A DNA stretch of 64,000 bases from Candidatus Obscuribacter phosphatis. GTDB lineage: Bacteria; Cyanobacteriota; Vampirovibrionia; Obscuribacterales; Obscuribacteraceae. A program made the translations under genes and the position numbers. Positions 2,858-63,298 of the stretch are shown in pieces. The DNA is taken from positions 3,025,556 to 3,089,555 of the forward strand of contig MOYA01000001.1 of the NCBI GenBank assembly GCA_001899315.1. The letters run 5' to 3'. Within the stretch, counting starts at the first letter, position 1, and each line of letters begins with the position of its first letter. The notes under the pieces are model-generated. The model did no database searches. It saw only the letters and a program-made list of their open reading frames with translations, and was not told the origin of the DNA.

Positions 2858-2911
2858 CGTATTTCTCTATTGCGCTGTAAAGACACTTAGTAAGGTTTCA
2901 AGAAAAACTGT

Positions 2912-4933
2912 TCATCGCCGCAATGGCACATTCCGGCTTCCGTCCGTCAGTGAAACCGAAAGACGATCGTTCCAAGGCCTACCAAAAATTGTAATTGTGC
3001 CCTTAACCTCCTGATTAGGCTGCACCAAGGTAGTTTCAAAATCAGCTCGCAAAGCAGCTTCTGCCAATTTGCGATTATTCTCCGAGACCGAAAAGGCCTC
3101 GGGGTCAAAACTAAAATCGTTATCGCTGTTGTTCTTTATAGAGACTGTCAATATAGATTTGCGGGCTGTCACGTTCACACCCTTGAGTTCCATTGAGATG
3201 CCGGGAGCACTGGAGGCGGCAGCCTTGGGTTCGGGTTCAGACTGAACAACCGGAGCCGACTTGAGGTCTGACTCCGAAGCAGCACCGGAAGAGGAAGCAG
3301 CAGCAGTTTTGCCGCCTTTCTTGTCTTCTTTCTTGTTGCTCGCTTTAGCGTTAGGAACGGCTGCCACTTTTGCCACTTTCTCTTTAGGCGCTTCAGCCTT
3401 ACCGAAGCCGAAGAGCGAACCAAAGCCGAAACCACCTTTGTCGGGCTGAGGTGCAGGTTCAGGTTCGGCGACAGCTAATGACTCGGCTGAAGGAGAGATA
3501 CCAGAGACCTTACCAATGATCGAGCGGGCAGCTGATACACCAGCAGTAGAAGCCAGTTCCATCTGTGCCGCCTTCAAATCTTCTTTAGCCGAATCAGCCT
3601 CGTTCTGTGACTGAGCCACATCGGCGGCCGCTCTCTGCTTCTCAGAGTCTGAACCGGCCACTTCCACCTCTTGCCGACGAGCGGCCAGGGTTTGCTGAGC
3701 CAGAGCAAATTTATGATAGGCATAGAGATAACGGTAATAGGACTGCACTAAGTCGGTCTGCATGCGACGCACAGTGGAATAGGTCTTCTTGTCCATGGCC
3801 ACTGGTTTGAAAATCGCATCAACCTGGCGAGGGTTGACATTGAAACTACCCCTGGTGGCATCACCGGGTAAACCAACATCGATACGAGAGAGAGTCTCAG
3901 CCAGCTTGGCATCACGCACTGCATCTTTAATGGCGCCGCCGTTCAGAGCTCCCTTCCAGAGAATCTTCAAATCATCACGCTGTTGGTAAGGAGATCTGGC
4001 GTCCATGCCTTTAGGAATAATTGGAACAAAGGTGGACTTCTTCTTCTCAGGCTCATCGTCCGACTGCCTGCGTTGTCCGCCACCGGCACCGCTGCCTGCA
4101 CCGCCACCGCCAAAAAGCCCGGCTGGTCGCTCAGGCTGCTGCGGTGCCATCTGCGGCGGATAGCCGCCGGGATAGGGATTGCCGTAAGGATTTAGATAAG
4201 GATTGGCGTAGGGGTTGGCATAAGGATTAGCATAGGGATTGGCATAAGGATTGGCATAGGGATTTGCCGATGCATCACCGTTGTAGGCCACATTTGCCTG
4301 GGTGGAAAGCGTCACTGCCGGTGGTGGCGGCGTTAGAGCCCCGCCACTGACCAGAGACCCAGGCGGCGGGGGCGGTACGACTCCGGCATTGCCAAAGGCG
4401 CTCTGATAGGAATTACCGTAGGAAGCCATCTCGACAGGCTTGGCTTCTTCAGCCGGTTTACCAGTGCCGGGAATTTGACCGGCAGAGGCAGTGGAACCGG
4501 CATTATCTGTCACACCGGTGGGCAGCCCAGTCACCGAACCTTGAGCCTGGTTGAAACCAAAACCGGAAAAATTACCGGAAGAAGCAGTGGCGTTTTGACC
4601 GGAGATTGGATCGCGTGAAACCTTGGGCAATAAGCGGCCGAGCCCATCAAAGCTGAAGCCGCCAAAACCACCGCGCTGTCCTTGTCCCTGACCTTGACCC
4701 TGGGCCTGGGCTTGGGCCCGCAAAGCCGCTTGTTCTTGGTCTGCCTGCTCTTCTTGCTGAGCCATTTCAACAAACTTAGGATCGACTCGCGGACGGAGAC
4801 GACCGAGGGCGCCTCCACCTGCAGGGACCATGGCTTGACTGTCGTTCTTACCCAAGCCACCACCAATTCCACCGCAGCCGCTCAGGACTGTGGTGGAAGC
4901 GATCAGGACAAGGATAACGAGGACGTAATTCAT
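2912..4933 (-). CDS. Repeat-rich outer-envelope lipoprotein with coiled coil and C-terminal beta domain
   Basis: The 673-residue product starts with a lipoprotein signal peptide ending in the lipobox LSGC (Cys about residue 20). Gln/Ala/Gly-rich sequence follows, then a run of NPYA units at about residues 223-250 and a Gly-rich stretch. Residues about 390-470 form a long Ala/Gln/Glu-rich helix, with a YYRYLYAYHKFALAQQ segment recalling the helical hairpins of TolC-type proteins. The last 100 residues resemble a small beta-sandwich. A basic Lys-rich region with FGFG repeats lies between. It is 20 bp downstream of the 211-residue exported protein and upstream of the TrbL-like gene. Function unknown; a structural role in the same envelope complex is inferred. 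The only nearby SD (AAGGAG) is about 16 nt upstream, which is long. Confidence 0.75.
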   Translation of the reverse strand: MNYVLVILVLIASTTVLSGCGGIGGGLGKNDSQAMVPAGGGALGRLRPRVDPKFVEMAQQEEQADQEQAALRAQAQAQGQGQGQGQRGGFGGFSFDGLGRLLPKVSRDPISGQNATASSGNFSGFGFNQAQGSVTGLPTGVTDNAGSTASAGQIPGTGKPAEEAKPVEMASYGNSYQSAFGNAGVVPPPPPGSLVSGGALTPPPPAVTLSTQANVAYNGDASANPYANPYANPYANPYANPYANPYLNPYGNPYPGGYPPQMAPQQPERPAGLFGGGGAGSGAGGGQRRQSDDEPEKKKSTFVPIIPKGMDARSPYQQRDDLKILWKGALNGGAIKDAVRDAKLAETLSRIDVGLPGDATRGSFNVNPRQVDAIFKPVAMDKKTYSTVRRMQTDLVQSYYRYLYAYHKFALAQQTLAARRQEVEVAGSDSEKQRAAADVAQSQNEADSAKEDLKAAQMELASTAGVSAARSIIGKVSGISPSAESLAVAEPEPAPQPDKGGFGFGSLFGFGKAEAPKEKVAKVAAVPNAKASNKKEDKKGGKTAAASSSGAASESDLKSAPVVQSEPEPKAAASSAPGISMELKGVNVTARKSILTVSIKNNSDNDFSFDPEAFSVSENNRKLAEAALRADFETTLVQPNQEVKGTITIFGRPWNDRLSVSLTDGSRNVPLRR
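4171..4265 (-). repeat. 12-bp tandem repeat encoding NPYA units
   Basis: About eight consecutive 12-bp units, slightly diverged at the DNA level, encode NPYA (last units NPYL, NPYG, NPYP) inside the lipoprotein gene. The phase is a multiple of three, so copy-number change would alter repeat length without a frameshift. Confidence 0.8.
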
Positions 4934-4953
4934 ATTTTGAAACTTCAGTCTCC

Positions 4954-5589
4954 TTACTTACCGAGCAACTTGGCTCTAACTGCAGTGGACGAACTGGATC
5001 CGCCGCCGCCGTAGTAGCCACCGCCGCCACCGGAGCCACCATAGCTCGAACCATAGCTGGCAGGCGTCGCGGCAGCACGCATACCAGAAGCTGGTTTACC
5101 TAAGCCGACCGGGCGGGCGGCGACATTGGTCTTGGCCTGTTGCTGTTGGGCATACTGATTGCCAAGCCCACCCATCTTAACGCCGGGCAGAGCAGTGGCT
5201 GGTCCCATCCCTCTAGCCGGAATATTTGAACCAAAACCAGCCTGAGGCAGATTTGGGGTCTGAATGCGCGGTGTTACCGGACCAGAACCAGTATTGAAGG
5301 GCAGACCGCCTTCAGGAATGCGACCGCCATTGTTACCAGTGGGAGCGAGTGGGATGTTGTAACCCTGATCGTTTGCTGGAGCAGTGCGGTAGTCTTTGAT
5401 AACCGGACCATCATCCAAGATCTGGACTTGCAATGGTGACTTGTGCCAGCCAGCCTGCTGCAACTGATTTTTTTTGATATTGATGGAACCGGCATTCTGT
5501 GCCGATGCTTCAACTTGTGAAAATACCGCCAGGCCGAGAACAGCTCCCAGCACTGTCAGATATTTCGATTTTAGAAAATTCGGATTCAT
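4954..5589 (-). CDS. Exported glycine/asparagine-rich hypothetical protein
   Basis: This 211-residue protein has a signal peptide (hydrophobic about residues 13-28, cleavage after ASA). Its mature part is rich in Gly, Pro, Asn and Gln and ends in a Gly-Tyr-Ser stretch (YYGGGGSSSS) before a basic tail. The ATG at 5589 has a good SD, AGAGGAC, 6 nt upstream. It sits between the 302-residue Gly-rich exported protein and the lipoprotein, all on the same strand, so it is almost certainly co-transcribed. The family is not recognised. The composition suits a disordered or fibre-like periplasmic or surface protein. Confidence 0.75.
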   Translation of the reverse strand: MNPNFLKSKYLTVLGAVLGLAVFSQVEASAQNAGSINIKKNQLQQAGWHKSPLQVQILDDGPVIKDYRTAPANDQGYNIPLAPTGNNGGRIPEGGLPFNTGSGPVTPRIQTPNLPQAGFGSNIPARGMGPATALPGVKMGGLGNQYAQQQQAKTNVAARPVGLGKPASGMRAAATPASYGSSYGGSGGGGGYYGGGGSSSSTAVRAKLLGK

Positions 5590-5672
5590 AAAATTGTCCT
5601 CTTAAATCCCTGCCAACTCCAATTATTGATTGTAAAAATCTTTCGCCAGTTTTGCTTGCTTAAACCCGTTGT

Positions 5673-6578
5673 TTAGCGTCCTCCGGGAAATCTAATCGGT
5701 ATAGGCATGGCATTGATGCTGTTGATCATGCGGTTACCGACTCTGCCGACGGTACGCTGCAAGATGCGACTACCTTGACTGTTGGAGCGCTTCTTGTTGC
5801 TGGAGGAACTATTCATCTCATCGTCAGGCAGAGAAAGGTCTTGCGATGTAGATTGATTGACCTGTACAGCCTGAGGTGCCTCCGGGGCAGCCTGGTAGCC
5901 CTTATCATCGAGACCGGGTTCTTTACCCATGCGCTTAAGCGCATTCTGAGCGGCACTCACCTGAGGAGAGGGAGCCGTACCGGCAAAGACATCGCCGGGA
6001 CCAGAACTGGTATTGCCGCGTCCATAAGGAGTCTCGCGCTTGACGAAGGCACCAGGTGGCACTGATGTATAACCTTGCGAGGTGCTCACCTTGCCGCCCC
6101 CTGCCGGGGCACCCATGCCACCAACAGATACCGAGCCGCCGCCAGAACCACCGTAAGTAGAGGAGAAACTGCCGCCACCGCCACCGCCGCCGGCGATGCG
6201 AATCATGCCTCCGCCCTTCAAGCCGGGCAGATCAAGCTGCTCAGGCATAGGAGGGAAGCCTGTCGGTGCCACAGGCTCTTCACAAACAATGGGAAGGAGC
6301 GATATGTCGGCACGTCTGGGTTTGGGCGTGGGACGCCAGCCTGGGCTAGCCAAAGGAATGTTGACCGGAGCCGCTTGCTGAACCGGAGCCGGAGCACCAT
6401 GACGGGACTGTTGGGTTTCATTGGAATACTGGTTATCGCCGGGTTGATGTACCCACTTGCCCATGTTGACCGGCGGCAACTGCGCCAGAGCCGGTTCGCA
6501 GATATATGGAAGCAGGATTCCCGAGGCAATCAGGGCCGAAAGAATTACTCTTGACATGGTTGTTTGAGCTTGTATCAC
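5673..6578 (-). CDS. Exported glycine-rich hypothetical protein, first gene of the operon
   Basis: The protein has about 302 residues: a signal peptide (hydrophobic core ILSALIASGILLPYI, site near ALA-Q), a Pro-rich region, a poly-Gly and GGSGGGS segment, and a basic C-terminus. I choose a GTG start at 6576-6578 because GGAGGG lies at the ideal 7 nt upstream. Reading from the ATG at 6638 would add 20 residues with no ribosome site and bury the signal peptide. It heads the minus-strand operon of exported proteins. The family is not recognised. Two cysteines in the first 110 residues are the only obvious candidate functional residues. Confidence 0.7.
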   Translation of the reverse strand: MIQAQTTMSRVILSALIASGILLPYICEPALAQLPPVNMGKWVHQPGDNQYSNETQQSRHGAPAPVQQAAPVNIPLASPGWRPTPKPRRADISLLPIVCEEPVAPTGFPPMPEQLDLPGLKGGGMIRIAGGGGGGGSFSSTYGGSGGGSVSVGGMGAPAGGGKVSTSQGYTSVPPGAFVKRETPYGRGNTSSGPGDVFAGTAPSPQVSAAQNALKRMGKEPGLDDKGYQAAPEAPQAVQVNQSTSQDLSLPDDEMNSSSSNKKRSNSQGSRILQRTVGRVGNRMINSINAMPIPIRFPGGR

Positions 6579-6585
6579 GCTATAT

Positions 6586-6591
6586 CCCTCC
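6586..6591 (-). promoter_or_regulatory. Ribosome binding site that fixes a GTG start
   Basis: The minus strand reads GGAGGG followed by 7 nt and GTG. This makes GTG at 6578, not ATG at 6638, the likely start of the Gly-rich exported protein. Confidence 0.65.
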
Positions 6592-6848
6592 ACGGGACGG
6601 TTGAAACCACGGCCGGTTTCTAGCAATTTCATGCCCATTTTTAGTAAGTAGAGAACGCCAAAATGGTGAATTTATGGGCTTGACAACTAGATTATGCGAA
6701 CTTTATGCGCCTGTTTAAGACCCCTCGAAAAATATGCACGGAAACCCCAGATAGCAAGCGGAGTCCCTCATTTGTAAGCCCTTACCCGCCCCTTGTCAAT
6801 AAGAAATTACAGTATTCCAGGAGCAAGTGTTGGCTAGATAACATTTTT

Positions 6849-6874
6849 GCGAAATGGGGAGATTCCCATTTCGC
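6849..6874. repeat. Perfect 10-bp inverted repeat
   Basis: GCGAAATGGG, a 6-nt spacer (GAGATT) and CCCATTTCGC form a perfect dyad in the middle of the divergent intergenic region. It has no T-run typical of a terminator. A regulator binding site or an RNA hairpin are both possible. Confidence 0.7.
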
Positions 6875-7072
6875 CGCAAATTTATCTGCAATTAATCGGA
6901 AAAGCTTTGCCACCGGAAAATTCGACAGATTAATTATGGCGATTGCAAGCTCGCCGGCAAAATAGCCAGCAAATTTTTCGAACAAGACTACAATAAACCG
7001 TAACCTGAAGCGTATTCTGGGTAGGAAATGCAGCAAGGCATGTTTATTTATTAGGCTGTAAGTAGAAGGCAA

Positions 7073-8878
7073 ATGACCGATAAAGATCCAGATTTAAAAT
7101 CTCACCGCATCTCGAAACCCCTGGCATTCGCCCTGGTGTCACTTATATTTAGTACAGCCTCACCGCACTGTCAGGCACAAGCAAAAGGTCGAGGCGGCGG
7201 CGGCGGCGTCTATCTCACCACCCCCGAGCCGACCAACCCGCTTGAACATAACAACCGCGCCGTCGAGCTGGGCACAAAGGGACTTTGGGACGCAGCCATC
7301 AGAGAACACGAAATCGCCTTGGACGGCGATCCCGAAAATACAATGTTTCGCCGCAATTTATCGGGCGCACACCTTAGATATGCCGATATTTTGGCGAGCA
7401 AGAAAAACTATACAGCCGCCATCGATCACTATCGCAAAGCCCTTTTTGCCGACGAACACAACGGACCGGCCGACGGTAATTTAGATAGATGCTTAGCCAA
7501 TCTCGGCAAGAACCCGCTTGATCAGTCTTACAGACTAAGCCTGGCTGAAGGAGCCGACAAAAGCGGACACTTCATCGACGCTGTAGTCGAATATCAAAAG
7601 TGCCTGAGACTATCGGATTCAGGAGCCAATCACTACAAACTTGGACGCTGCCTGCTTAGGGGCGGGAAAATAATGGAAGGCTATGACCAGCTTATTCAAG
7701 CCTTGCGCAAGAGCTGGCCAAAAGATGATCCCCTGCTTGTCGATTGTCATCTTTTACTAGCCGACACCTTAAAAGACTTTGCCTATAAAGCCAAGGCTTA
7801 TCCAGACAAAACAGTTTATATAAAGCGCCTCAACAATGCTTTCGTTGAGTATCGCCGGGCTGTTATGCTCAACCCCATTAACGGTGAGGCCTTATCTGGC
7901 ATGGCTGAAACAGCCAGAGAAGCCGTGGCCCTCAATCCAAGCTTTAGAAACCTGCTCAATTTAGGTGCAGCCTATTTGCTCTCGGGCGACTACGACCGAG
8001 CCAAGGTCAATTACGAAAAAGCCTGGAGACTGGAGCCGACTAATCCAGATTTAGCCAAGGCCCGCATGGCTTATCACCGGGCCATAGCCGAAGCCCCAGT
8101 TGGCATAACTTCCAATTTGCGGGTCGCCGAGTCGGAGCAAAAAATTCAAGACATGCTGGCTAAAGAGCCTAACAATGTGCAGCTGCTCTATATTCTGGCG
8201 CGCTTAAAGGAAAAACTGGGCGACAAAGAAAGCGCCATCGAGCTTCTGGAAAAAGCCAAATCTATCAGTGCTTTCTTAGAGCCGGCAGTGATTCCGTCTT
8301 TAGATAGATTGAAAGGCGTCGCCAGTGGTGGCACCGAAACTGGTGGCAAGCCGGCGCTCGGACCAGACGGCAAGCCGGTGGCGTCTAGTACTACCGCACA
8401 AGCGGCAGCCGAGAAAGCCAAGGCAGAAGCGGAAGCAGCCAAGAAATACGGCGAAGTGGAAAGCCTTTTGTCGAGCGGCAAACTTGATGAAGCCGACAAA
8501 GAAATTGAAAGTTTATTGGCAGCCAATGCCGCCGACGGCAAAGCTTGGATGTTCAAAGGTACACTCTTGGAAAAGAAAGGCAATATCGACGACGCCTCGG
8601 TGAGCTATCGCCAAGCAGCCGGATTTAAGATAAGCGGCGCCGAAGAAGCATTGATAAGATTGGAAGAAAGTCGAGTCAAGCCGCTTGTACAAGATGCAGA
8701 CAAGTATTTGGCCGAGAAGAAACAGGTGGAAGCAGCCGAAATCTTGAGAGAGGCGGCCAGACTGGCACCCAAGCTGCCGAGCGTGCATAAAAAACTAGCT
8801 GAACTGCTCAGATCGATGGGTGAAACCAAAGAAGCAGAGAAAGAGGAACAGAAGGTCAAAGACATGGAGAAGAAATAG
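7073..8878 (+). CDS. Exported TPR-repeat protein
   Basis: The 601-residue protein has an N-terminal export signal (hydrophobic about residues 17-30, site near CQAQA) and a short Gly run. Many tetratricopeptide-type helical repeats follow at about residues 55-400 and 465-600, for example units beginning with NRAVELGTKGLWDAAIREHE and AIDHYRKALFADEHN. An Ala/Lys/Glu-rich linker at about 420-460 divides the two arrays. TPR arrays are protein-binding scaffolds; the partner is unknown. The ATG has AAGG just upstream. It is the first of several plus-strand exported or membrane genes up to 12583 and is divergent from the Gly-rich protein operon, so it may serve the same envelope structure. Confidence 0.8.
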   Translation: MTDKDPDLKSHRISKPLAFALVSLIFSTASPHCQAQAKGRGGGGGVYLTTPEPTNPLEHNNRAVELGTKGLWDAAIREHEIALDGDPENTMFRRNLSGAHLRYADILASKKNYTAAIDHYRKALFADEHNGPADGNLDRCLANLGKNPLDQSYRLSLAEGADKSGHFIDAVVEYQKCLRLSDSGANHYKLGRCLLRGGKIMEGYDQLIQALRKSWPKDDPLLVDCHLLLADTLKDFAYKAKAYPDKTVYIKRLNNAFVEYRRAVMLNPINGEALSGMAETAREAVALNPSFRNLLNLGAAYLLSGDYDRAKVNYEKAWRLEPTNPDLAKARMAYHRAIAEAPVGITSNLRVAESEQKIQDMLAKEPNNVQLLYILARLKEKLGDKESAIELLEKAKSISAFLEPAVIPSLDRLKGVASGGTETGGKPALGPDGKPVASSTTAQAAAEKAKAEAEAAKKYGEVESLLSSGKLDEADKEIESLLAANAADGKAWMFKGTLLEKKGNIDDASVSYRQAAGFKISGAEEALIRLEESRVKPLVQDADKYLAEKKQVEAAEILREAARLAPKLPSVHKKLAELLRSMGETKEAEKEEQKVKDMEKK

Positions 8879-8975
8879 GCAGCCGTTTTTAGGATAATAA
8901 TTCCAGGGTAAACAGCTATTGCCAGAATGCACTTTCAGCCTTAAATTATAGAGGTTTCCAAGGGGCGCATTCGAG

Positions 8976-9004
8976 ACAAACAAACAAACAAACAAACAAA
9001 CAAA
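8976..9004 (+). repeat. ACAA tetranucleotide microsatellite
   Basis: Seven perfect tandem ACAA units plus one base lie 22 nt upstream of the GTG start at 9027. Tracts of this kind can gain or lose units by slippage. Here that would change promoter or leader spacing rather than the reading frame. Confidence 0.9.
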
Positions 9005-9026
9005 TTAGGTAACACTGAGTCAAACC

Positions 9027-10763
9027 GTGAATAGAAATAGCAAAGCGACAATCTTATCTTTATCTCTCGGTCTGCTCTTGAGCGGCGTCATTGTCGAGTT
9101 GCCCGCGGCCCTGGCCATGACCCTGGCCGAAGCTGATCAATTGCTTTTGCAGGGCAAGCTGAAAGCGGCTGAAGAAGCTTATCGAGAGCTCTTAGGCGAA
9201 GACGAAAACGGTGATGCGGTGGCCGGTCTCTCAGTAACACTGGCTAAACAAGGACTGGAAAAACCATACAAGATTGTCGAAGCAGAAAAACTGCTCAGAA
9301 AAAGTCGCGAAAAGTTTGGCGATAACCCCAATGTGCAAGCCGCCACCGGCTATGTCGCCTATGTGCATTCAAAGACAGTAGCCTCGCCCGCAAAAAGAGA
9401 TTTATTGCTGGAAGCAGCTGAGAGTCTGTCAAAGAAGGCGATAGACCAAAATCCCGATATAGTCATTGCCCAGCAAACTCTCGGCATGGTCAAGATTGCC
9501 CAAGATGATATCGAAGCAGCCGTGCCCCCCCTAAGAAAAGCCTGCAACCTGGCTGAAAACTGTGTCAACCTTACTTTGTTGGCCCAGGCTCTGCTCAAGC
9601 TAGATGCCAAAGACAAAGAGGCGGAAGAACTGGTCAACAAAGCCTTGCAGCTCAAGTCTGATTATTCAGCCGCTCGTTTGCAAAAGGCTATTGTCTTGTC
9701 GGCCCAAGGCAAAAACGAAGAGGCCTATCTAGAACTCAAGACTATTCCAGCCGACCTGCGCAATTCAGAATGGCATACTGTGGCAGGCAATATAGAAAGC
9801 CGCCAGGGTGATGGTCCCTCGGCACTGCAAAGCTGGAACAAAGCCAGCATGGAAGACCCCCGCAATCCTGAACCATATAAAAGAAAAGCCGAACATTATA
9901 TGATGCGCGGCGACGGCGCAATGGCTATTGCCGAGTACCATACCGGTCTTGAGATTTTGCCCAACGACTGGGCCATGCGTGCAGAACTGGCAGAACTAGC
10001 CCTGCGTCAAGATAATCTCGATGTGGCCGAAACCGAATTCAAAACCATTCTAGCCACCAAACCGGATGATCCAAAAGCTATGCTTGGTCTAGCCCGGGTC
10101 TATTTTCGCAAGTATCGCAAAGAAGGCAATTTCCCGCCCAACTTTAGCCAACACATGGACAGATTGCAGCAAATCATCACCGAACAAGCTGTGCAAGGTA
10201 AAGTGCTCAAAGACGGCGCCCGCAATTTGCAAGAAAGTATCGAGCTTTCAGAAGCCACCAAAGCCATTTCGCAAAGACGCTTTCGCGAAGGCAGACAGAA
10301 GTTTTTGGACGTTATCGAAAAGCATAAAGACGAACCCTTTGATGTAATCACACTCGGCGAACAATGCTATTTCGAAGGTGACTATAAGGCGGCGGAAAAG
10401 GCTTTTAACTATGCCAAAGAATTGCCCGAGGTGAGCACCCGTGCCGAACAAGGTCTGAGCAAGATAAACTCGCAGCGCACCGAGGCATCTAGACATGTGA
10501 AACTGGGGGATGCCGCTTGGAAGATTCCCGAAATTGCCATAGACCACTATAAGCAGGCTCTAAACGCCGATCCGCAGTATTCGGAAGCCTATTTCGGACT
10601 TTTCAATCTTTATACCAAGTCTGATAAACAAGACCCAGCCCAAGCCATGTCTTATGCTGAAAGTTTTTTAGAAGCAGCCGAAGACGCCAGTCCGCAGCGC
10701 AAGGAAGTGGAAACTGGTCTAGCCAAGCTTAAGAAGAAAACAAGCGGTGGTAAGGGTAAATGA
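9027..10763 (+). CDS. Exported TPR-repeat protein
   Basis: The 578-residue product starts with GTG, without a strong SD. It has a signal peptide (hydrophobic about residues 9-29, site near ALA). The rest is a nearly continuous array of TPR-like helical pairs, with units such as AEEAYRELLGEDENGDAVAG and AIDHYKQALNADPQYSEAYF. It ends in a Lys/Gly-rich tail. Architecture and neighbourhood match the preceding TPR gene, so they may be paralogues or partners. A tetranucleotide microsatellite immediately upstream could modulate expression. The ligand is unknown. Confidence 0.8.
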   Translation: MNRNSKATILSLSLGLLLSGVIVELPAALAMTLAEADQLLLQGKLKAAEEAYRELLGEDENGDAVAGLSVTLAKQGLEKPYKIVEAEKLLRKSREKFGDNPNVQAATGYVAYVHSKTVASPAKRDLLLEAAESLSKKAIDQNPDIVIAQQTLGMVKIAQDDIEAAVPPLRKACNLAENCVNLTLLAQALLKLDAKDKEAEELVNKALQLKSDYSAARLQKAIVLSAQGKNEEAYLELKTIPADLRNSEWHTVAGNIESRQGDGPSALQSWNKASMEDPRNPEPYKRKAEHYMMRGDGAMAIAEYHTGLEILPNDWAMRAELAELALRQDNLDVAETEFKTILATKPDDPKAMLGLARVYFRKYRKEGNFPPNFSQHMDRLQQIITEQAVQGKVLKDGARNLQESIELSEATKAISQRRFREGRQKFLDVIEKHKDEPFDVITLGEQCYFEGDYKAAEKAFNYAKELPEVSTRAEQGLSKINSQRTEASRHVKLGDAAWKIPEIAIDHYKQALNADPQYSEAYFGLFNLYTKSDKQDPAQAMSYAESFLEAAEDASPQRKEVETGLAKLKKKTSGGKGK

Positions 10764-49978: not shown

Positions 49979-50569
49979 ATGCCCAAATCATTCGTCGACC
50001 TCGAGAAAAGGCTGAATCTTCTCTTTTTGCTTGTCCTTTTTTCGCTCTGGCAACTCTCAAGCACAGTAGCTTTTGCCAAAGACGGACAAGATTCAAATAT
50101 TGAAACCTGCAAGAAAAAAGAAACAGCCGACCTGCCCAATTTCCACCAGGTACATCCTTACCTATATAGAGGGGGAGAACCCAGCGAAGTCGGACTGAAG
50201 AAATTGAGCGATCGCGGTATCAAAACCATTATCGATCTGCGCGCTAAAGGGGCGCGCACCAGCAAAGAAAAGGCGCTAGCTCAGACATTAGGTATGGACT
50301 ATATCAATCTACCAATGAGTGATAAGGCCCCGACTCAGAGCCAAGTAGAGACTTTTTTAGCAGCGGTAAAAGAAGGAAGAGAGAAAGATCGCCCTGTCTT
50401 CCTGCATTGCGCCCATGGCTCAGACCGCACCGGCTGCTTAATCGGCATCTACAGAGTGAGCGAAGACGGCTACACCTACAAAGAAGCTTACAAAGAAATG
50501 CGCCGCTACTATTTCGGTCCCCAATTCAAAGAGCTGTCTGGGGCAGTAAAAGCAAGAGCCAAAAACTAA
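49979..50569 (+). CDS. Exported dual-specificity/tyrosine phosphatase-like protein
   Basis: The 196-residue protein has an N-terminal hydrophobic signal (about 12-32, site near AFA). The signature HCAHGSDRTG (Cys144, Arg150) fits the Cx5R active site of cysteine-dependent phosphatases. The general-acid loop is probably LPMSDKAP (Asp115). Upstream is YLYRGGEPSEVGLKKLSDRG, typical of bacterial exported DSP-like proteins. It would act outside the cytoplasm, where protein phosphorylation is rare, so a non-protein phosphate ester such as an inositol or lipid phosphate is possible. The substrate is unknown. Confidence 0.85.
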   Translation: MPKSFVDLEKRLNLLFLLVLFSLWQLSSTVAFAKDGQDSNIETCKKKETADLPNFHQVHPYLYRGGEPSEVGLKKLSDRGIKTIIDLRAKGARTSKEKALAQTLGMDYINLPMSDKAPTQSQVETFLAAVKEGREKDRPVFLHCAHGSDRTGCLIGIYRVSEDGYTYKEAYKEMRRYYFGPQFKELSGAVKARAKN

Positions 50570-50869: not shown

Positions 50870-54243
<3,374 letters not shown>

Positions 54244-55129: not shown

Positions 55130-56452
55130 TTGATCATAAAAGTGTCCGATTTCGAGAAAGCATTAGAAAGCCGCTATCGCATCCTTGGCAAACTTGGCGA
55201 AGGCGCCATGGGCCAGGTTTATCGAGCTGTGCAATTAGAGACCGGCCGACCGGTGGCCATTAAGGCCTTGGCCAGAGATCTGGTTGCCGATCCCAAATCT
55301 TTGAAGCGGCTGGAGAGAGAAGCCAAGTCTTTATCGGTACTAAGCCATACCGGTATTGTCTGTGTCTACGAATTTGACACAGTCACAGCCGATGTGCCCT
55401 TTCTAGTCATGGAATTTGTGCCGGGACGCTCACTGAAACAGATTTTGAAAGAGCGTCAGCTGAAACTGAAAGAGACTCTCAACCTGATGGCCCAAGCAGC
55501 CAAAGCGCTGAGCCATGCCCATGTCAAAGGAATCATACACAGAGACGTCAAGCCGGCTAATATGCTCATCGATGAAGCGCGCATGGAGCTCAAGATAGTT
55601 GACTTCGGCATCGCCAGAAAAGCAAGCAATTTGACCGAACAGCTCACCATCGAAGGTGAAGTTTTCGGCAGCCCCCTTTACATGAGCCCCGAACAGTGCC
55701 AGGGTAACGAATTGGACGCAAGAGCCGATATCTATTCACTGGGCTGCGTGCTTTTTGAGTGCTTGACCGGCAGACCGCCCTTTCGCGGCATTTCTGCTTT
55801 CGACACAATGACCATGCACCTTAATGAAAAGCCGGCGGCGCTGGCAAATTTGATCAATCTAGGAGCTTACGGCGAACTCGATGAGATTGTCGGGCGTTGC
55901 CTGGAAAAAAATCCCGAAAACCGTTACCAGCAGATGAGTGAACTGGCTTCAGCCTTGGCGGTTTTGAAAGAAACAGCAGCGGCAGCGCTAGAGAATAACA
56001 ACGGGGAAGAACCCAAAACAGCCGCGTTCCTGCAGACCTCGGGCGCCAGAAAAGAAAACGGCGAAGAGTCTAGCAAGAAAAGCAGCAAGGCACCGGTGGT
56101 TGTCATTATCACCATTCTTGTCATCTGCTTGGCGGCGGCCTTCTTCAGGCTCAGCAAAGTCTCCAGTACCAAAGAGACAAAATTGCCGCCTGCGCAACCA
56201 GAAATCAAAAATAGGGCGCAAAAAAATCCGCCGGCAAACTCTCAAGATGCAAACTCTCAAGACGCAAGCGGGCCGGCTAGTGCAGAGAACACAGCGCCAC
56301 CACCAGTTTCACAAATCGGCATTCCAGCCTTACCGTCGCACTCCAATTCAAGCGAGAAGAAGCCCCTTGACGACGAAAGCAGCAAGTTTTCACAGACCGC
56401 TCCCCAAGGCTTGCTAATCGAAGTAAAAGACGAAACCAGCAATAAAGAATAG
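55130..56452 (+). CDS. Membrane-anchored Ser/Thr protein kinase
   Basis: Hanks-type kinase domain at about residues 15-285: glycine loop LGEGAMGQV, ATP-binding Lys45 (PVAIKAL), catalytic HRDVKPAN (Asp139), DFG (VDFGIARK) and SPLYMSPEQC as the activation-segment end. A membrane helix at about 325-345 follows, then a Pro/Ser/Glu-rich tail of about 95 residues outside. TTG start is the first plausible one; GTG at 55142 is possible. A -10-like TATTAT lies about 25 bp upstream. GH57 and FHA genes follow on the same strand. Confidence 0.9.
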   Translation: MIIKVSDFEKALESRYRILGKLGEGAMGQVYRAVQLETGRPVAIKALARDLVADPKSLKRLEREAKSLSVLSHTGIVCVYEFDTVTADVPFLVMEFVPGRSLKQILKERQLKLKETLNLMAQAAKALSHAHVKGIIHRDVKPANMLIDEARMELKIVDFGIARKASNLTEQLTIEGEVFGSPLYMSPEQCQGNELDARADIYSLGCVLFECLTGRPPFRGISAFDTMTMHLNEKPAALANLINLGAYGELDEIVGRCLEKNPENRYQQMSELASALAVLKETAAAALENNNGEEPKTAAFLQTSGARKENGEESSKKSSKAPVVVIITILVICLAAAFFRLSKVSSTKETKLPPAQPEIKNRAQKNPPANSQDANSQDASGPASAENTAPPPVSQIGIPALPSHSNSSEKKPLDDESSKFSQTAPQGLLIEVKDETSNKE

Positions 56453-56566
56453 TTACAGGTTGCAGCAATAGACCCATACGACCTGGGCACAATTGATATA
56501 TTCCAGAGTGTTCTTTGCAAGTTAAGTTTCATTGCTTTTCATTGCTGCGTTTAGAGGATAAATACC

Positions 56567-58231
56567 TTGAGCATCGGCTCGTTCGTTTTTATGTTGCACA
56601 GCCATTTGCCTTATTACAAAAAGGCAGGCATGTGGCCCTTCGGTGAAGAAAGCGTTTATGAGTGTATGGCGGAGACCTATGTGCCGCTGCTCAACGCCAT
56701 TGCCGACTTGCACAATGACGGTATCAATGCCAACCTGACCCTCGGTCTGACACCAGTGCTTTGCGAACAGCTCGCCGATGAACATTTCAAGAAAGGCTTC
56801 GAAAAGTTCTTGAAAGCTCGCATTGAAGCTGCCGGTGAAGATGAACAACGCTATTCGAACCAGGGCAAAACACCCAATCCAGAACTGCATCAGCTTGCCC
56901 GCTTTTATCTAAACTGGTTCAAACAGATAGAGAAAGACTTCACCCATCGCTGGGGTAGAGATATCTTGAGCGGTTTCAAACGCTATCAAGATCTCGGTGC
57001 CATAGAAATAACCACATCGGCGGCCACCCACTGTTTCTCACCACTCTTAGAAGAAGATGTCACTCTGCAAGCAGAGTACAAAACAGGTGTAGCTAACTAT
57101 AGAAAACATTTCGGCAAAGACCCGCAAGGTTTCTGGCTGCCGGAATGCGCCTATCGCCCCGAAGAAAACGGACGCGCCGGTGTTGAAAAATACATGTACG
57201 AAGCAGGCATCAAATACTTCTTCACCGAGAGCTTTGTCATTAAGGGCGGTCAAACAGCAGAAGTAAGAAGAATAGTCGGACCCTATGGTTCGGTTCAATA
57301 CATACCTACCGCCACCACATCTGATACCGGTCTCGATACCTACGAAGCTTTCTGGCTAAAAGAGTATCCGGTTGCAGTCATGGGTCGCCACGAAGAAGCT
57401 GGATACAAAGTTTGGTCGGCCGACCACGGCTATCCAGGCGACGGCAATTATCGTGAGTTCCACAAAAAAGACGACAAGTCGGGCTTGCATTACTGGAAGT
57501 TGACCTCGAAAAGCACCGACCTTGGCGCCAAAGAAATCTATAATCCCGAAGCAGCCGAGAGCCGCATGCGCGAGAACTCTGATCACTACGCCGGCTTCAT
57601 ACAACAGTGCCTAACCGAGCATCTGAAAGCAACCGGTAAACCAGGCTTGATCATGGTTTCTTTCGACACCGAACTCTTTGGTCACTGGTGGTTCGAAGGC
57701 GTCACCTGGCTGAAAGAAGTGATTCGCAAGCTAAAAACCTATACAGCCGTCAAACTGACCAAAGCCTCCGATTATCTCTCCGAGTTCCCTCCCGAAAAGA
57801 CAATCGAACTGAAGCAGTCTTCTTGGGGTTCGGGCGGCCACTATCAAGTTTGGCTCAACGATGAGACCGAATGGATGTGGCCCCAAATTCATGACAGCGA
57901 GAAGAAAATGGCTGAAGTGGCCGATATGGCTGCGGTGGGTCATGACAAACTGATTACCCGTGCCGCCAAGCAATTAGCCCGCGAACTTTTATTGGTCGCT
58001 TCTTCCGACTGGCCCTTCTTGGTCACCACCGGACAAGCAAAAGACTATGCCACCGACCGCTTCAAAGAGCACAAAGAGCGCTTCGACGATCTCTATAAGA
58101 TGATCAAGAGCGGTAATGTCGATGAGAAAGTACTGGCTCAACTGGAAGATACCGATAGCCTCTTCAACGGCGAAGATCTCGATCTGAAGAACTTCTCGCC
58201 AACAACACTCTCGCAGTCGCTTACAGTCTAG
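56567..58231 (+). CDS. GH57-family 1,4-alpha-glucan branching enzyme-like protein
   Basis: The 554-residue protein fits the GH57/DUF1957 family that makes alpha-1,6 branches in glycogen. Catalytic nucleophile candidate is Glu in GFWLPECAYRP (about 191), and the acid/base candidate is Asp in VSFDTELFGHWW (about 367). N-terminal HSHLPYYKKAG is the usual first motif. The TTG start has GAGGA 8-9 nt upstream. The FHA gene begins 9 bp after the stop, so the two are probably co-transcribed. Confidence 0.9.
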   Translation: MSIGSFVFMLHSHLPYYKKAGMWPFGEESVYECMAETYVPLLNAIADLHNDGINANLTLGLTPVLCEQLADEHFKKGFEKFLKARIEAAGEDEQRYSNQGKTPNPELHQLARFYLNWFKQIEKDFTHRWGRDILSGFKRYQDLGAIEITTSAATHCFSPLLEEDVTLQAEYKTGVANYRKHFGKDPQGFWLPECAYRPEENGRAGVEKYMYEAGIKYFFTESFVIKGGQTAEVRRIVGPYGSVQYIPTATTSDTGLDTYEAFWLKEYPVAVMGRHEEAGYKVWSADHGYPGDGNYREFHKKDDKSGLHYWKLTSKSTDLGAKEIYNPEAAESRMRENSDHYAGFIQQCLTEHLKATGKPGLIMVSFDTELFGHWWFEGVTWLKEVIRKLKTYTAVKLTKASDYLSEFPPEKTIELKQSSWGSGGHYQVWLNDETEWMWPQIHDSEKKMAEVADMAAVGHDKLITRAAKQLARELLLVASSDWPFLVTTGQAKDYATDRFKEHKERFDDLYKMIKSGNVDEKVLAQLEDTDSLFNGEDLDLKNFSPTTLSQSLTV

Positions 58232-58239
58232 AGGGGAAA

Positions 58240-58551
58240 ATGACAGAATCACAAGGGCAACAGGGGACACGTTTGCCGGTTCTGGTCAATCTAGAAGACG
58301 GTCAACGTTTCACAATACAAACTCAGGCCGTGACCTTGGGGCGAGATCCTGATTGCGACCTAGTCTTGGCAGAGGACGGTTATGCCTCGGCTAATCACTG
58401 TCGCATATTCTGGGATCAAGGCCGTCTCTGGTTGGAAGACTTGATGAGCAGTAACGGCACCACCTTGAACGAGCAGATTGTAAAAATACCCACAAAGCTA
58501 ACCCCTGGCGACGTTATCAAAGCCGGGCGCACTCATTTTCGCATCGAATAG
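58240..58551 (+). CDS. Stand-alone FHA-domain protein
   Basis: The 103-residue protein is essentially one FHA domain, which reads phosphothreonine peptides. Binding residues are conserved: GRDPDCDLVL with Arg35, YASANHC with Ser50 and His53, and SSNGTTLN with Asn72 and Thr74. No other domain. It lies between the GH57 enzyme and the convergent AKT-motif protein (7 bp gap at the stops) and 1.8 kb from a Ser/Thr kinase. A reader of kinase output is the obvious hypothesis. Confidence 0.92.
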   Translation: MTESQGQQGTRLPVLVNLEDGQRFTIQTQAVTLGRDPDCDLVLAEDGYASANHCRIFWDQGRLWLEDLMSSNGTTLNEQIVKIPTKLTPGDVIKAGRTHFRIE

Positions 58552-58557
58552 AAAAGA

Positions 58558-59826
58558 TCAAGGACGAGCACTACTGGGATACTGACCGGTTGACTCGATA
58601 CCTTCATTCTTTTCTTCTTTCCAGAATTCGCCGGTTTCATCTTCTTTGGTATAGGTCGGCACCGGTGCCGCCTCTTCGCTAACACTGCCTGGTGCAGCCA
58701 CCGGTGGTGCTTGCAAAACCCTGGCAGCATCCGGCGCATCGGCATCATAGTGAAAAGTACCGCCCGTTCTAACCTTGCCGCCGCCTGCACCCGAGATGGG
58801 CTTTCCTTGCGGCAAAGCATGGTTAATACTATCTTGCGGCTTTTCTTGCGCTTCGGTAACTGACTGAACCGATTTAGATGGAGGTGCCGAAGGAGGAAAG
58901 ATAATGAAAAGGGCGACCACCACGATGGCGAAAGCGGCAATTCCGGCTATCAACATAAACTTCTCGCGTTTATGCTTCACCTCTTCCGGACAATCGCGGG
59001 TCATATATTTGCCGTCGCTGCGCTTGTAGAGAGTGTACTTCTCAAGATTTTCTCTCTGCAAAATAAGGGCGTCGATCTGTTCTATTTGCAGACCTTCTAA
59101 ATGATAGACCGGGGTTTGACAGCGCTGACAATAGCGAAAACGCTCGCGTCCCTCTGCTTCAGCCCACTTCCAGGGGCAAGGCAAGGCTTTCTTATGGCAA
59201 GGGATAGGTTCTATCTGCGCCTGCGGCTCTAGGGCTTTGGCTTTGATAGTTTCTTTAATGCGCGCTTCCTTCAAAACAAAAGACTGCGAGACCGCCAAAT
59301 TGAGCGCGTCATGATCAATCATGGTCTTGGCCACGGGCTGTTTGGTTTTCCGGGTCTGACTCATGTTCTGGCTAATGTTCTGACCAAGAACCTGATCGTT
59401 AAACTTAGCAGCCTGCTCGACAATACTTGATATATCAGTGGTAACTAGTGTTTTGGCGATTCGTCTTGTTTTCTTCCGTTCCGGTTTGGCTGTCTCAGAT
59501 AGAGACGGCACCTCGTTTTCCAGCATGGTCTTGGCCACGCGGCGGGGTTTCTTACCACCCGCGGCATTGTCATTACCACTTGCAGCAGAAGCATCTACCG
59601 AATTTATAGGAAGAGCAGTATTTTCAGGGTTGACTGTGGCTTCTTCTGCGGCTTTGGCAGCCAAATTCATCAGAGCCTCGATATCAGGCTTAGCCATATC
59701 GGCTTCCAGCATAGTCTTTGCCACACGGCGACGCCGCTCTTTTGTTTTAGAGGGGTCGAAATGCATTTCAAGCTTGGTCTTAGCGACCTTTCGCTTTTCT
59801 TGATCTGACTCTCCGCCTTCTTGCAC
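58558..59826 (-). CDS. Zinc-ribbon membrane protein with five AKT-type motifs
   Basis: The 422-residue protein has a cytoplasmic N-terminus carrying five related motifs of the form basic-x-Ala-Lys-Thr-hydrophobic with Thr at about 17, 38, 100, 126 and 168: KRKVAKTKLE, RRRVAKTMLE, PRRVAKTMLE, TRRIAKTLVT and KQPVAKTMID. A Cys-rich region follows: Cys210, Cys217 (PCPWKW) and CQRC (233/236), plus a later RDCP. It resembles the small zinc-ribbon module with a CxxC and PxY. A membrane helix (about 290-311) and a Pro/Gly/Glu-rich extracytoplasmic tail follow. Family not named. It lies tail to tail with the FHA gene. Confidence 0.82.
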   Translation of the reverse strand: MQEGGESDQEKRKVAKTKLEMHFDPSKTKERRRRVAKTMLEADMAKPDIEALMNLAAKAAEEATVNPENTALPINSVDASAASGNDNAAGGKKPRRVAKTMLENEVPSLSETAKPERKKTRRIAKTLVTTDISSIVEQAAKFNDQVLGQNISQNMSQTRKTKQPVAKTMIDHDALNLAVSQSFVLKEARIKETIKAKALEPQAQIEPIPCHKKALPCPWKWAEAEGRERFRYCQRCQTPVYHLEGLQIEQIDALILQRENLEKYTLYKRSDGKYMTRDCPEEVKHKREKFMLIAGIAAFAIVVVALFIIFPPSAPPSKSVQSVTEAQEKPQDSINHALPQGKPISGAGGGKVRTGGTFHYDADAPDAARVLQAPPVAAPGSVSEEAAPVPTYTKEDETGEFWKEEKNEGIESTGQYPSSARP

Positions 59827-59974: not shown

Positions 59975-60472
59975 ATGCCAGCTAAAGAGATGAAAAACAG
60001 ACGAAAGAGAAACGAGAGAGGCGGCGCCTCGATAGCCGAGTTTGGACCAGCCCTCGGTCTAATTCTTATCTGTATCTTCTTTCCACTGGTAGATATGCTG
60101 GCCATGGGTGTCTCTTATGGACTCTGTATGGTGCTCAATTACAATCAAGTGCATGAGGCGGCGCTACTGCCAAGCAGCGAAGCCTTGAGTAATGCCGGAC
60201 CAATCAAGAAAGGCATCCCCGACCAGTGGCTCAATGGCATGGGTCATTTTGTGAATATGTCCGGCTATCCAAGCACTGTGATTTCTTACAGAAACGGTCA
60301 AACAGACGCTACCTTGAATCAAGATAAAATTGTGACTGTATCTACGACCGTCGTTTGCAATCCATTTCTGCCGATACCCTTACCCGTCATTAATGTACCG
60401 GGGTTAAACGGACCAATGAGCTTCACGGTCACGTCAGAAAGCCAGATGGAAAATCCTGACCATGTTCAATAG
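59975..60472 (+). CDS. TadE-like pseudopilin-type protein
   Basis: The 165-residue protein has a basic N-terminus and the TadE-type start ERGGASIAEFGPALGLILICIF, followed by a long hydrophobic helix (about 22-48). A globular extracytoplasmic part follows with one Cys pair candidate. TadE/TadF-like proteins are minor pilins of Flp/Tad pili. It overlaps the next gene by 11 bp, so the three genes to 62583 form an operon. Confidence 0.75.
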   Translation: MPAKEMKNRRKRNERGGASIAEFGPALGLILICIFFPLVDMLAMGVSYGLCMVLNYNQVHEAALLPSSEALSNAGPIKKGIPDQWLNGMGHFVNMSGYPSTVISYRNGQTDATLNQDKIVTVSTTVVCNPFLPIPLPVINVPGLNGPMSFTVTSESQMENPDHVQ

Positions 60473-60881
60473 AGACTGGAAAATTGCTCACAGAGTCCAC
60501 CCCAGAAAGAATGGACACAGTATCGTTGAAGCCGTGACAGCCGCTCTCATTCTGATACCTATCACCTTGCTAATTCTAGACTTGCTTGTGCTTGTAATCG
60601 CCAATTCCATGAATGATACAGCAGCTAAGAATGCCGCCCGAGCCGGTGCCAATCACTCAGATTCAGGAGCGGCTTTCACCGCGGCCCAAACAACTTTGAA
60701 CAGTTTTCATAGTTCTCCCATTCTAAAGACACTTCAAATAAAGGCTTTCGACTATCCGTATCAAGGCGACAAAGTAGCCTGCACGACAAGAATGATAGTA
60801 AACCTTCCAGTACCCTTTCCAGGTTTCTCTACCTTTACCTTCGAAGCTAAAGCAGTGGAGCCATTGGTGGGTGAGAAATAG
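60462..60881 (+). CDS. TadE-like pseudopilin-type protein
   Basis: The 139-residue protein has basic N-terminus, NGHSIVEAVTAALILIPITLLI as the TadE-like membrane start (with the conserved Glu) and an extracytoplasmic domain of about 80 residues. It shares the pattern of its neighbour but has different sequence, so the two are probably distinct minor pilins. Overlaps the preceding gene. Confidence 0.75.
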   Translation: MFNRDWKIAHRVHPRKNGHSIVEAVTAALILIPITLLILDLLVLVIANSMNDTAAKNAARAGANHSDSGAAFTAAQTTLNSFHSSPILKTLQIKAFDYPYQGDKVACTTRMIVNLPVPFPGFSTFTFEAKAVEPLVGEK

Positions 60882-60897: not shown

Positions 60898-62583
60898 ATG
60901 ACAAAACGCCGAAACATACGCAAAGAACGTGGTTCGATTATTACCTTTGCCACAATCCTAGCCCTTACCCTAGTAGTGCTGGGCTCGGCCTTTCTGTTCT
61001 TTGTGCTCTTTATGGGTGGTCAGAAGGAAACCAAAAATGCCGTAGATGCTGGAATCTTAAACGCAGGAAAACAAGCCCTAGACAAAATTAGCGTGCCTCT
61101 TCCGGCAGGTCCGGCTAGTACATTCGCTGATATAACCACAGATCGAGCCGCAAATTATCTCATCGGAGACGGGCAGATAAACCTGCGGCGAGTAAACCGT
61201 ATGTGGGGCAAGGCCATGCTCATGGCAATCAACATACAGGCAATGCAAGCAGAGGGTACAGCCGGCAGCGGACAGGGCAATGTATCAAATGCCCTCAGTG
61301 AAGCGCAACAAACTTCGGATGCGCTGGCAAAAGAATTGATGAAGCAAGAGAGACTTCATCAATTCTTTCAAGATGTAGCCGGGCAAAACTCAGTGCGAAT
61401 GCTTGGCAATGGTGCCCAAATAAAGGTGAAGGCAGGCAGCAACTGGGAAACTTCACTGCTGGATAGAGGCTGCGAAAGCAATATAGTGCTCAACGGAGGT
61501 CCGCCTCTATTCAACCTACCTCCGGGCTATGTACTTCCGAATAACTACTATACCCAGTGCACAAGGCCTAATCCTCCCGCTGACGCGGCAAAGCTCTACT
61601 TTCTCAAAGGCTACACCCCGCTGCTTGTAAATGACAAAACATTTTGGCAAGTGCCTTTCAAGTTTGACGACAAACCACATTTGGTGGCGCGTTCAACCTT
61701 CGACGCCAACACGATGAAGAACCAACCACTCAACTGGAATTTTGCTGTTCCAAATGCTTTTTCTGGTGAAGGCGAAGCCGTCAAGAACGGACCCACAGAA
61801 AAAGCGATGTCTTGGATGCTCACCAATCCAAGAGAGCCCTTTCAACTGGCTATGCCTCATTCATTCGTGAAGATTCACGTTGACGAAAACAAGTCGCATT
61901 GGTTCTATTACCCAGGCGGTCCACCGCCACTCCCTGATACCGAATTCGGTATTGCGCAAACCTATGGCTACACAACCGAGACACAAAGCAGCAGCATGCC
62001 GGGCGGTGGACTGCTCTGCACAACAGTGTCGGCAATGAGCGTTCTGCTCGGCACTGACGTGGTAGGCAGAAGCCTAGACGGTATCATTTTTGGACTGCCG
62101 GAAGGAAACACAACAGCGGTAGAAAACTACCTAACGAACCGCTGCAATGAGATGATATCGGTGACTGGTCATTCAGTGGGTGTCAACCAGGTGCATCAAG
62201 CTTTGAGCAATCCTGTGACAATTGGAGCCCTCATCGCCGGAGTGAGAGATTTCTATCTCTACAGTCCAGATGGTATGAGCCTGAAATGCAATCCGGCGCC
62301 TCTTGCTATTGCCGAATCCCCCTGGTTAGCGACAATGATCTCCAATAATCCGGACGGTTCAGAAAAACTTGTTATAGACGAAGCCTCTATGCCAGCACCA
62401 ATCTTTTTTGTTCCCACGGTTGTGCCGGCCCCTTTTTGCTCGCCCAAACTAGCCCTCGGCTGGGGTCTATGGAAAAAAGATGTAGCCTGGCAACCGGGCA
62501 CCGGTTATAACGGCTGCCTTGGTCAAATTAGAGTAAAGCGCTGGACCAATGTGCACGCACTTGGGGTATGCACCTTCCCTTAA
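60898..62583 (+). CDS. TadG-like protein with long extracytoplasmic region
   Basis: The 561-residue protein has a basic N-terminus and ERGSIITFATILALTLVVLGSA, the TadG-type N-terminal segment, then GGQKETKNAVDAGILNAGKQAL. The rest is a large extracytoplasmic region with several Cys (CTRPN, CNEM, CNPAP, CSPK, CTFP). Usual TadG proteins carry a von Willebrand A domain after this segment; I see no clear MIDAS motif. Third gene of the pseudopilin operon. No TadA ATPase, TadB/C or Flp pilin genes appear in the window. Confidence 0.72.
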   Translation: MTKRRNIRKERGSIITFATILALTLVVLGSAFLFFVLFMGGQKETKNAVDAGILNAGKQALDKISVPLPAGPASTFADITTDRAANYLIGDGQINLRRVNRMWGKAMLMAINIQAMQAEGTAGSGQGNVSNALSEAQQTSDALAKELMKQERLHQFFQDVAGQNSVRMLGNGAQIKVKAGSNWETSLLDRGCESNIVLNGGPPLFNLPPGYVLPNNYYTQCTRPNPPADAAKLYFLKGYTPLLVNDKTFWQVPFKFDDKPHLVARSTFDANTMKNQPLNWNFAVPNAFSGEGEAVKNGPTEKAMSWMLTNPREPFQLAMPHSFVKIHVDENKSHWFYYPGGPPPLPDTEFGIAQTYGYTTETQSSSMPGGGLLCTTVSAMSVLLGTDVVGRSLDGIIFGLPEGNTTAVENYLTNRCNEMISVTGHSVGVNQVHQALSNPVTIGALIAGVRDFYLYSPDGMSLKCNPAPLAIAESPWLATMISNNPDGSEKLVIDEASMPAPIFFVPTVVPAPFCSPKLALGWGLWKKDVAWQPGTGYNGCLGQIRVKRWTNVHALGVCTFP

Positions 62584-62602: not shown

Positions 62603-63115
62603 TTATTTGAGGGCCCAGCTGATTGAAATAATCGTGCCGCGGTCTTTTGGATTACGCACCAGTACTATGGAAAGTTTCTGTTTAAGATTGTCGGCATTGA
62701 TGATAAAAAGATCACCGACCTTACCGATTGCCTTGCGCCCTTCTTCGCTTGGTGTAACTGTGTTGAGCTTAGCCTCGCGGCAGGCATCCATGTACCATTT
62801 ATGCACTACATCTGGTGCATCTTTGCTGTACATGGTCAGCCCGGCGGTGGGCTTACCACTGGTCGAATTAACAAAGCCTTTGTCGTAGGCGTTGGGATAC
62901 GGCTTAATTGGAAAGTTTTCCGGTATATAAGGCCTCAACTTCAAACCAGGAATGTTCAGGTCTTTGAGAGCCTGAGCTCTTTGCTTGGCTCTCTCCTCAG
63001 CGCTTGGAGGATTCGGATGGGGAGCCGTCGGTCTACCGCCGGCATCTAAGGTCTGCCCAAAGGCAGGAGCACTGGCCAGAAGATGAATAAGAAGAAGCGG
63101 CTTTACGATTTTCAT
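62603..63115 (-). CDS. Exported hypothetical protein
   Basis: The ATG at 63115 starts a signal peptide (hydrophobic about 5-18, site AFG-Q). The frame also extends upstream to 63193, but that adds 26 basic residues before the signal. The mature protein has a Pro/Arg-rich segment then a globular part with WYMDACREAKLNTVTPSEEG. About 170 residues. Family not recognised. It converges with the TadG-like gene, ending 20 bp from its stop. Confidence 0.65.
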   Translation of the reverse strand: MKIVKPLLLIHLLASAPAFGQTLDAGGRPTAPHPNPPSAEERAKQRAQALKDLNIPGLKLRPYIPENFPIKPYPNAYDKGFVNSTSGKPTAGLTMYSKDAPDVVHKWYMDACREAKLNTVTPSEEGRKAIGKVGDLFIINADNLKQKLSIVLVRNPKDRGTIISISWALK

Positions 63116-63298
63116 GAGAGTAATTCTACTACCTCGCTGAGCCCACCGCTCCTGACATCCCCGCTCACGCTTTTTCTCAGCAAAACTTGTCAAACATAGT
63201 GTTTTTGGTGTCTGTTTTGTTATTTCTTTTGATATTTCTTCAATGACAAGCCTTTGCCCTTTCGCCCCGGCGCCTCACTGTTGTACCTTATCAACCTT

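Follow-up and report, generated by a model that had tools for sequence, protein, structure and literature searches.

Bacterial FHA proteins are common, and their targets are mostly unknown. FHA control of a secretion machine is described for the Agrobacterium T6SS, where an FHA protein recognises a membrane component once a Thr close to the N-terminus of the latter has been phosphorylated, which switches on the export machine (the PpkA-pTssL-Fha pathway, PMC3953482). In Mycobacterium tuberculosis, the ABC transporter Rv1747 carries a disordered phosphorylated region and FHA domains in one polypeptide, and these drive clustering at the membrane (PMC9312465). Several FHA proteins also accompany a Tad-type apparatus, the Kil/Tad-like system of Myxococcus xanthus; there, the FHA domain is fused to the ATPase KilF or belongs to proteins of unknown role, and no multi-tag acceptor scaffold is described (PMC8460266).

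The locus studied here lies in a window (the whole stretch of DNA that was analysed) of 64,000 nucleotides from Candidatus Obscuribacter phosphatis (MOYA01000001.1; genome G000 below). It encodes a small FHA protein and, tail-to-tail with it, a membrane protein bearing an array of threonine-centred tags, hereafter the scaffold. As with TssL, phosphothreonines on a membrane protein would be read by an FHA protein acting on an export machine. However, the T6SS case involves one phosphothreonine, a larger Fha and a known dedicated kinase, whereas an array and Tad-type genes are found here, and the scaffold showed no homology to a named family. The likeness to Rv1747, drawn here from sequence, lies in a disordered acceptor region combined with an FHA domain, but the two reside in separate proteins. 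A tandem acceptor array separate from its reader is unlike the bacterial FHA systems found in the literature compared, and no description of the FHA-scaffold pair was found in the literature on FHA proteins, TadE/Tad pili, Obscuribacterales and repeated motifs. The pair usually lies beside genes for pilus-like proteins, and this suggests a phosphorylation-controlled switch for cell-surface machinery that is new to the literature searched.

Organization of the locus

The features of the locus are the following (strand in brackets).

55130-56452 (+): membrane Ser/Thr kinase; adjacent to the system but not conserved as part of it, with an orthologous neighbour only in genomes G001 and G002
58240-58551 (+): stand-alone FHA protein of 103 aa (Pfam FHA), proposed phosphothreonine reader, convergent with the scaffold gene
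58558-59826 (-): motif-array scaffold of 422 aa; predicted disordered N-terminal array, helix, zinc ribbon, one transmembrane helix and extracytoplasmic tail
59776-59778 (-): Thr17 codon, motif copy 1 (RKVAKTKLE), kept in congeners
59713-59715 (-): Thr38 codon, motif copy 2 (RRVAKTMLE), Thr kept in a congener
59527-59529 (-): Thr100 codon, motif copy 3 (RRVAKTMLE), Thr kept in a congener
59449-59451 (-): Thr126 codon, motif copy 4 (RRIAKTLVT), Thr kept in a congener
59323-59325 (-): Thr168 codon, motif copy 5 (QPVAKTMID), immediately preceding the pre-ribbon helix; both this Thr and the Asp at +3 are invariant in the aligned family
59975-60472 (+): TadE-like minor pseudopilin 1; its gene diverges from that of the scaffold, and the protein itself matches no Pfam model
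60462-60881 (+): TadE-like minor pseudopilin 2, weak TadE match, conserved beside the preceding gene
60898-62583 (+): TadG-like protein, which has a long helix at the N-terminus and, outside the cytoplasm, a large region
62603-63193 (-): predicted exported protein at the end of the cassette, conserved in most cassettes

A preliminary description of this DNA had placed a kinase with intact catalytic residues, an FHA protein with its phosphothreonine-binding residues and a five-motif membrane protein within 5 kb. All three were recovered: the kinase matches Pfam Pkinase (182 bits) and displays the HRDVKPAN and DFG motifs of Hanks-type enzymes, the FHA protein scores 67 bits against Pfam FHA (cut-off 20.7), and the scaffold has a single transmembrane helix and a four-Cys ribbon (C217, C233, C236 and C279). 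The distance is correct as well, but the three genes do not form one operon, since those for FHA and scaffold lie on opposite strands and converge, with 13 bp between the matches in the window.

In the FHA protein, the pocket residues G34, R35, S50, H53, N72 and G73, which make up the G-R, S-x-x-H and N-G motifs, are invariant among 16 orthologues. FHA domains select phosphothreonine over phosphoserine by means of a pocket for the methyl group, formed by a conserved His (PMC3146460); this His is H53 here. The best-scoring named family is FhaB/FipA (NF049868), at 84.6 bits where membership requires 125; only positions 61-157 of the 158-position profile are covered, so nothing corresponds to the N-terminal part of FhaB. 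The protein resembles GarA/OdhI in its small size, and GarA/OdhI is its sequence match among solved structures, but the OdhI model gives 30.5 bits instead of 200, and the N-terminus is short, not conserved and devoid of a conserved phospho-acceptor Thr. For the T6SS-associated family (TagH/Fha), the score is 41 bits against a threshold of 120. Elsewhere in the genome (L141, G000:C3:76000-92000), a gene for an FHA protein of 729 aa lies about 6 kb from those of two tandem ribbon proteins.

No significant Pfam, NCBIfam or PDB profile or fold match was obtained for the scaffold, and a fold search with the ribbon domain likewise returned none. T168, D171 and the four cysteines are invariant in the aligned family. 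In an AlphaFold model of residues 154-332, the tag is poorly ordered (pLDDT about 61-64) and is followed by a helix, the ribbon and the transmembrane helix. Basic residues precede the transmembrane helix and a Pro-rich stretch follows it, which, by the positive-inside tendency, suggests a cytoplasmic location for the N-terminal half. The tail (residues about 350-405; 58612-58779, minus strand), predicted to be extracytoplasmic, contains conserved GTFHYD and DETGEFW sequences; FHY-like and acidic-G-x-FW motifs are kept in many orthologues and perhaps represent a second interaction site.

The threonine tag

In the window scaffold, [VI]AKT occurs five times, the threonines being Thr17, Thr38, Thr100, Thr126 and Thr168; an example of the tag peptide is KKPRRVAKTMLENEVP. 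Across 24 FHA-adjacent scaffolds, 122 copies (3 to 7 each, mean 5.1) define the consensus R-[KR]-[VI]-[AP]-[KR]-T-[ML]-[LIM]-[DE]. The preliminary description held that recurrence of the motif in diverged sequence looked selected, and this is borne out by several observations. The strict pattern, which leaves out the one remaining copy (VAKTK), occurs four times, as compared to a mean of about 0.02-0.03 and a maximum of 1 in 500 shuffles of the N-terminal part. Relative to a congener, motif columns are 80% identical against 27% for spacers, and all five motif Thr are kept against one of the ten other Thr. Synonymous codons are randomised between copies of one protein (0.312 identical, 0.29 expected), so that selection acts on the protein, and the copies appear to be old or convergent and maintained at the protein level. 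A search of the genome with the tag DNA pattern gave four matches, three of them in the scaffold. Because many single-site paralogues share one [KR]TxLD-like site before the ribbon, the array may have arisen by amplification of this ancestral site.

The centre of the tag is strictly threonine. When all scaffold proteins collected were searched with the flanks only, ignoring the centre, Thr was found in 120 of 120 cases and Ser never; with the N-side flank alone, the count was 72 of 72, again without Ser. In the linkers, Ser outnumbers Thr about two to one (9.5% versus 5.1%). If only a kinase were involved, Ser would as a rule be accepted too, while FHA domains exclude phosphoserine. Position +3, the classical specificity position of FHA domains, is acidic (Asp or Glu) in 80% of copies, and in 100% of the last ones.

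Pairing of the FHA and scaffold genes

Obscuribacterales are little-known non-photosynthetic relatives of cyanobacteria, and about 40 of their genomes were compared; the family counts below cover 36 genomes. The relatives are Candidatus Obscuribacterales (Melainabacteria) genomes. When 84,980 species genomes were scanned with an alignment of the scaffold, every match bore the label Obscuribacterales, Melainabacteria, Cyanobacteria or Obscuribacter, or came from an unplaced bin (one was labelled Proteobacteria), which is consistent with one lineage carrying the scaffold. A genome from another family of the same class (G059) has a weak match, to the ribbon part only.

Twenty-five loci hold both an FHA orthologue and a scaffold, and in all 25 the two genes converge, with 13 to 560 bp between the matches. 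As these loci were found through the scaffold, a genome-wide count is the fairer test. An FHA orthologue (E below 1e-26) is present in 19 of the 36 family genomes, and in 17 of these 19 an array scaffold lies beside it; among the matches listed, none of the 17 genomes devoid of the FHA orthologue has an array scaffold (Fisher test, 2e-8, treating genomes as independent of shared ancestry). The genomes are relatives, such that the counts are not independent events, and in the fragmentary assemblies among them an absence may correspond to missing data. Tag arrays recur beside FHA genes in related genomes (24 FHA-linked scaffolds), and the motif is present in orthologues of the scaffold.

The two exceptions, G022 and G035, have scaffold relatives with single tag-like sites. 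Conversely, G025 and G060 have no FHA orthologue and a Tad-linked scaffold that retains the last tag only, so this last tag has another role or another reader. In G022 (isolate SW_5), there are some 25 ribbon-scaffold matches, many with one pre-ribbon [KR]TxLD-like site, and the FHA orthologue is unlinked.

Association with a Tad-like operon

On its other side, the scaffold gene forms a divergent pair with an operon for TadE-TadE-TadG-like pseudopilins (60-62.6 kb); the preliminary description had missed this operon. The TadE- and TadG-like assignments are putative and based mainly on N-terminal features; the second TadE-like protein matches Pfam TadE weakly, below the cut-off (E 0.013). Orthologues of the TadG-like protein are encoded at 22 relative loci, and its AlphaFold model (pLDDT 87, helix at 13-63) had no similar solved structure in a fold search. 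The operon adjoins the scaffold gene divergently in 18 of the 25 FHA loci. Since Tad-linked scaffolds without an adjacent FHA gene also occur (L044, L047, L050 and L065), the wider unit is the scaffold together with the Tad-like operon, on which the proposed FHA reader and the array form a linked layer.

A Tad core is encoded elsewhere in the genome, with a T2SSE-family ATPase at G000:C1:1154684 and, beside it, TadZ-, TadB/C-, RcpC- and TadE-like genes, named by reading the sequences. In that region (L142, G000:C1:1150000-1169000), the core genes (TadA, TadB/C-like, TadZ, RcpC-like, TadE and TadG-like, at 2545-9582) are followed by two kinase genes.

A possible mechanism and its alternatives

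We consider it probable that the array is a series of phosphothreonine acceptors on a membrane scaffold, read by the dedicated FHA protein and acting on Tad-type surface assembly. The scaffold would be a single-pass membrane protein whose cytoplasmic, disordered half exposes 3 to 7 phospho-acceptor tags, and phosphorylation of the tag threonines would fall to one or several of the numerous Hanks-type kinases that the cell possesses. The FHA protein encoded tail-to-tail would then bind these phosphothreonines and, given several tags, could do so with avidity, or cluster or shield the scaffold. The zinc ribbon, transmembrane helix and extracytoplasmic tail might pass this state on to the divergently encoded TadE/TadE/TadG-like pseudopilins, the outcome being control of their assembly or export. 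Against this reading stand the last tag kept in G025 and G060, the FHA orthologues of G022 and G035 with no array scaffold beside them, and the fact that no kinase was found to be conserved in the cassette. For the fuller statement that Obscuribacterales possess a two-protein phosphothreonine code, made of a multi-tag scaffold and its own FHA reader and gating Tad-type surface pseudopilins, we regard the chances as even. Here sequence alone points to a likely FHA target and to the motif by which it would be recognised. The array is a candidate multivalent phosphothreonine array that can be compared with the FHA-docking clusters of eukaryotes, and it comes from a relative of the cyanobacteria with about 95 Ser/Thr kinase matches in one genome; the pair opens a route to how phosphorylation controls Tad-type surface structures.

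Three other explanations are considered. That the arrays are functionless low-complexity expansions seems hardly credible: the varying copy number and spacing and the disorder of the region would fit, but the randomised codons, the preservation of tags amid diverged spacers and the near-absence of copies in shuffled sequences argue against it. Alternatively, the tag may serve, independently of phosphorylation, as a short linear motif for binding to a partner, for example a Tad component, with the FHA gene linked only through a common regulon. The [KR]TxLD-like site kept in many paralogues, also where the FHA orthologue is gone, and the broader linkage of the scaffold to the Tad-like operon than to FHA speak for this possibility. 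However, such a motif does not account for strict Thr, never Ser, amid more flexible flanks, nor for arrays that coincide with the FHA gene, and an FHA domain unused for phosphothreonine could lose its pocket residues, all of which are invariant. We therefore find it unlikely.

The third explanation is that of the preliminary description, a relay of kinase, FHA protein and scaffold in which the kinase at 55130 would be dedicated to writing the tags, with the GH57 enzyme as a possible tie to glycogen. The reader and scaffold part of this relay is strongly supported by the gene pairing, the Thr-only centres, the acidic +3 position, the invariant pocket and the co-occurrence, whereas the parts given to the window kinase and GH57 are not supported. 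Within the genus, both genes are conserved neighbours of the pair, and the kinase gene lies on the strand of the FHA gene, about 1.8 kb upstream. Outside it, no GH57 match was found near the pair, so that the hint at carbon storage is lost, and no orthologous kinase was found beside the FHA-scaffold pair across genera. In a best-match comparison that took in 56 own-genome kinase-bearing regions, none of the kinases near FHA loci of other genera had the window kinase as best match (its rank was 2 to 50); they are closer to other kinases of G000, and the window kinase was rejected as conserved partner. Moreover, 14 of the 25 FHA loci have no kinase match within 5 kb, and the genome contains about 95 kinase matches and a separate PP2C-FHA-kinase cluster. 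Some kinase gene does occur at a distance of up to 5 kb from the FHA gene in about 6 of the 12 genera, as compared to about 14% expected per position, a post hoc comparison that gives a weak hint that kinases, though no particular one, gather near the cassette. A dedicated role for the window kinase is thus quite improbable. The PP2C-FHA-kinase cluster (G000:C1:108905-110732), whose phosphatase, FHA protein and kinase genes lie on one strand and resemble a housekeeping kinase/phosphatase/FHA cluster, is an equally plausible source of both writer and eraser.

Two further genes lie upstream of the kinase gene in the window. The product of 49979-50569 (plus strand), about 4.5 kb from it, is a small protein with a signal-like N-terminus, an HCxxGxxRT cysteine-phosphatase signature and weak matches to phosphatase-related models. 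The other, 50870-53380 (minus strand), encodes a protein of 836 aa that combines TPR-like repeats with two aspartyl protease-like domains of the retroviral type.
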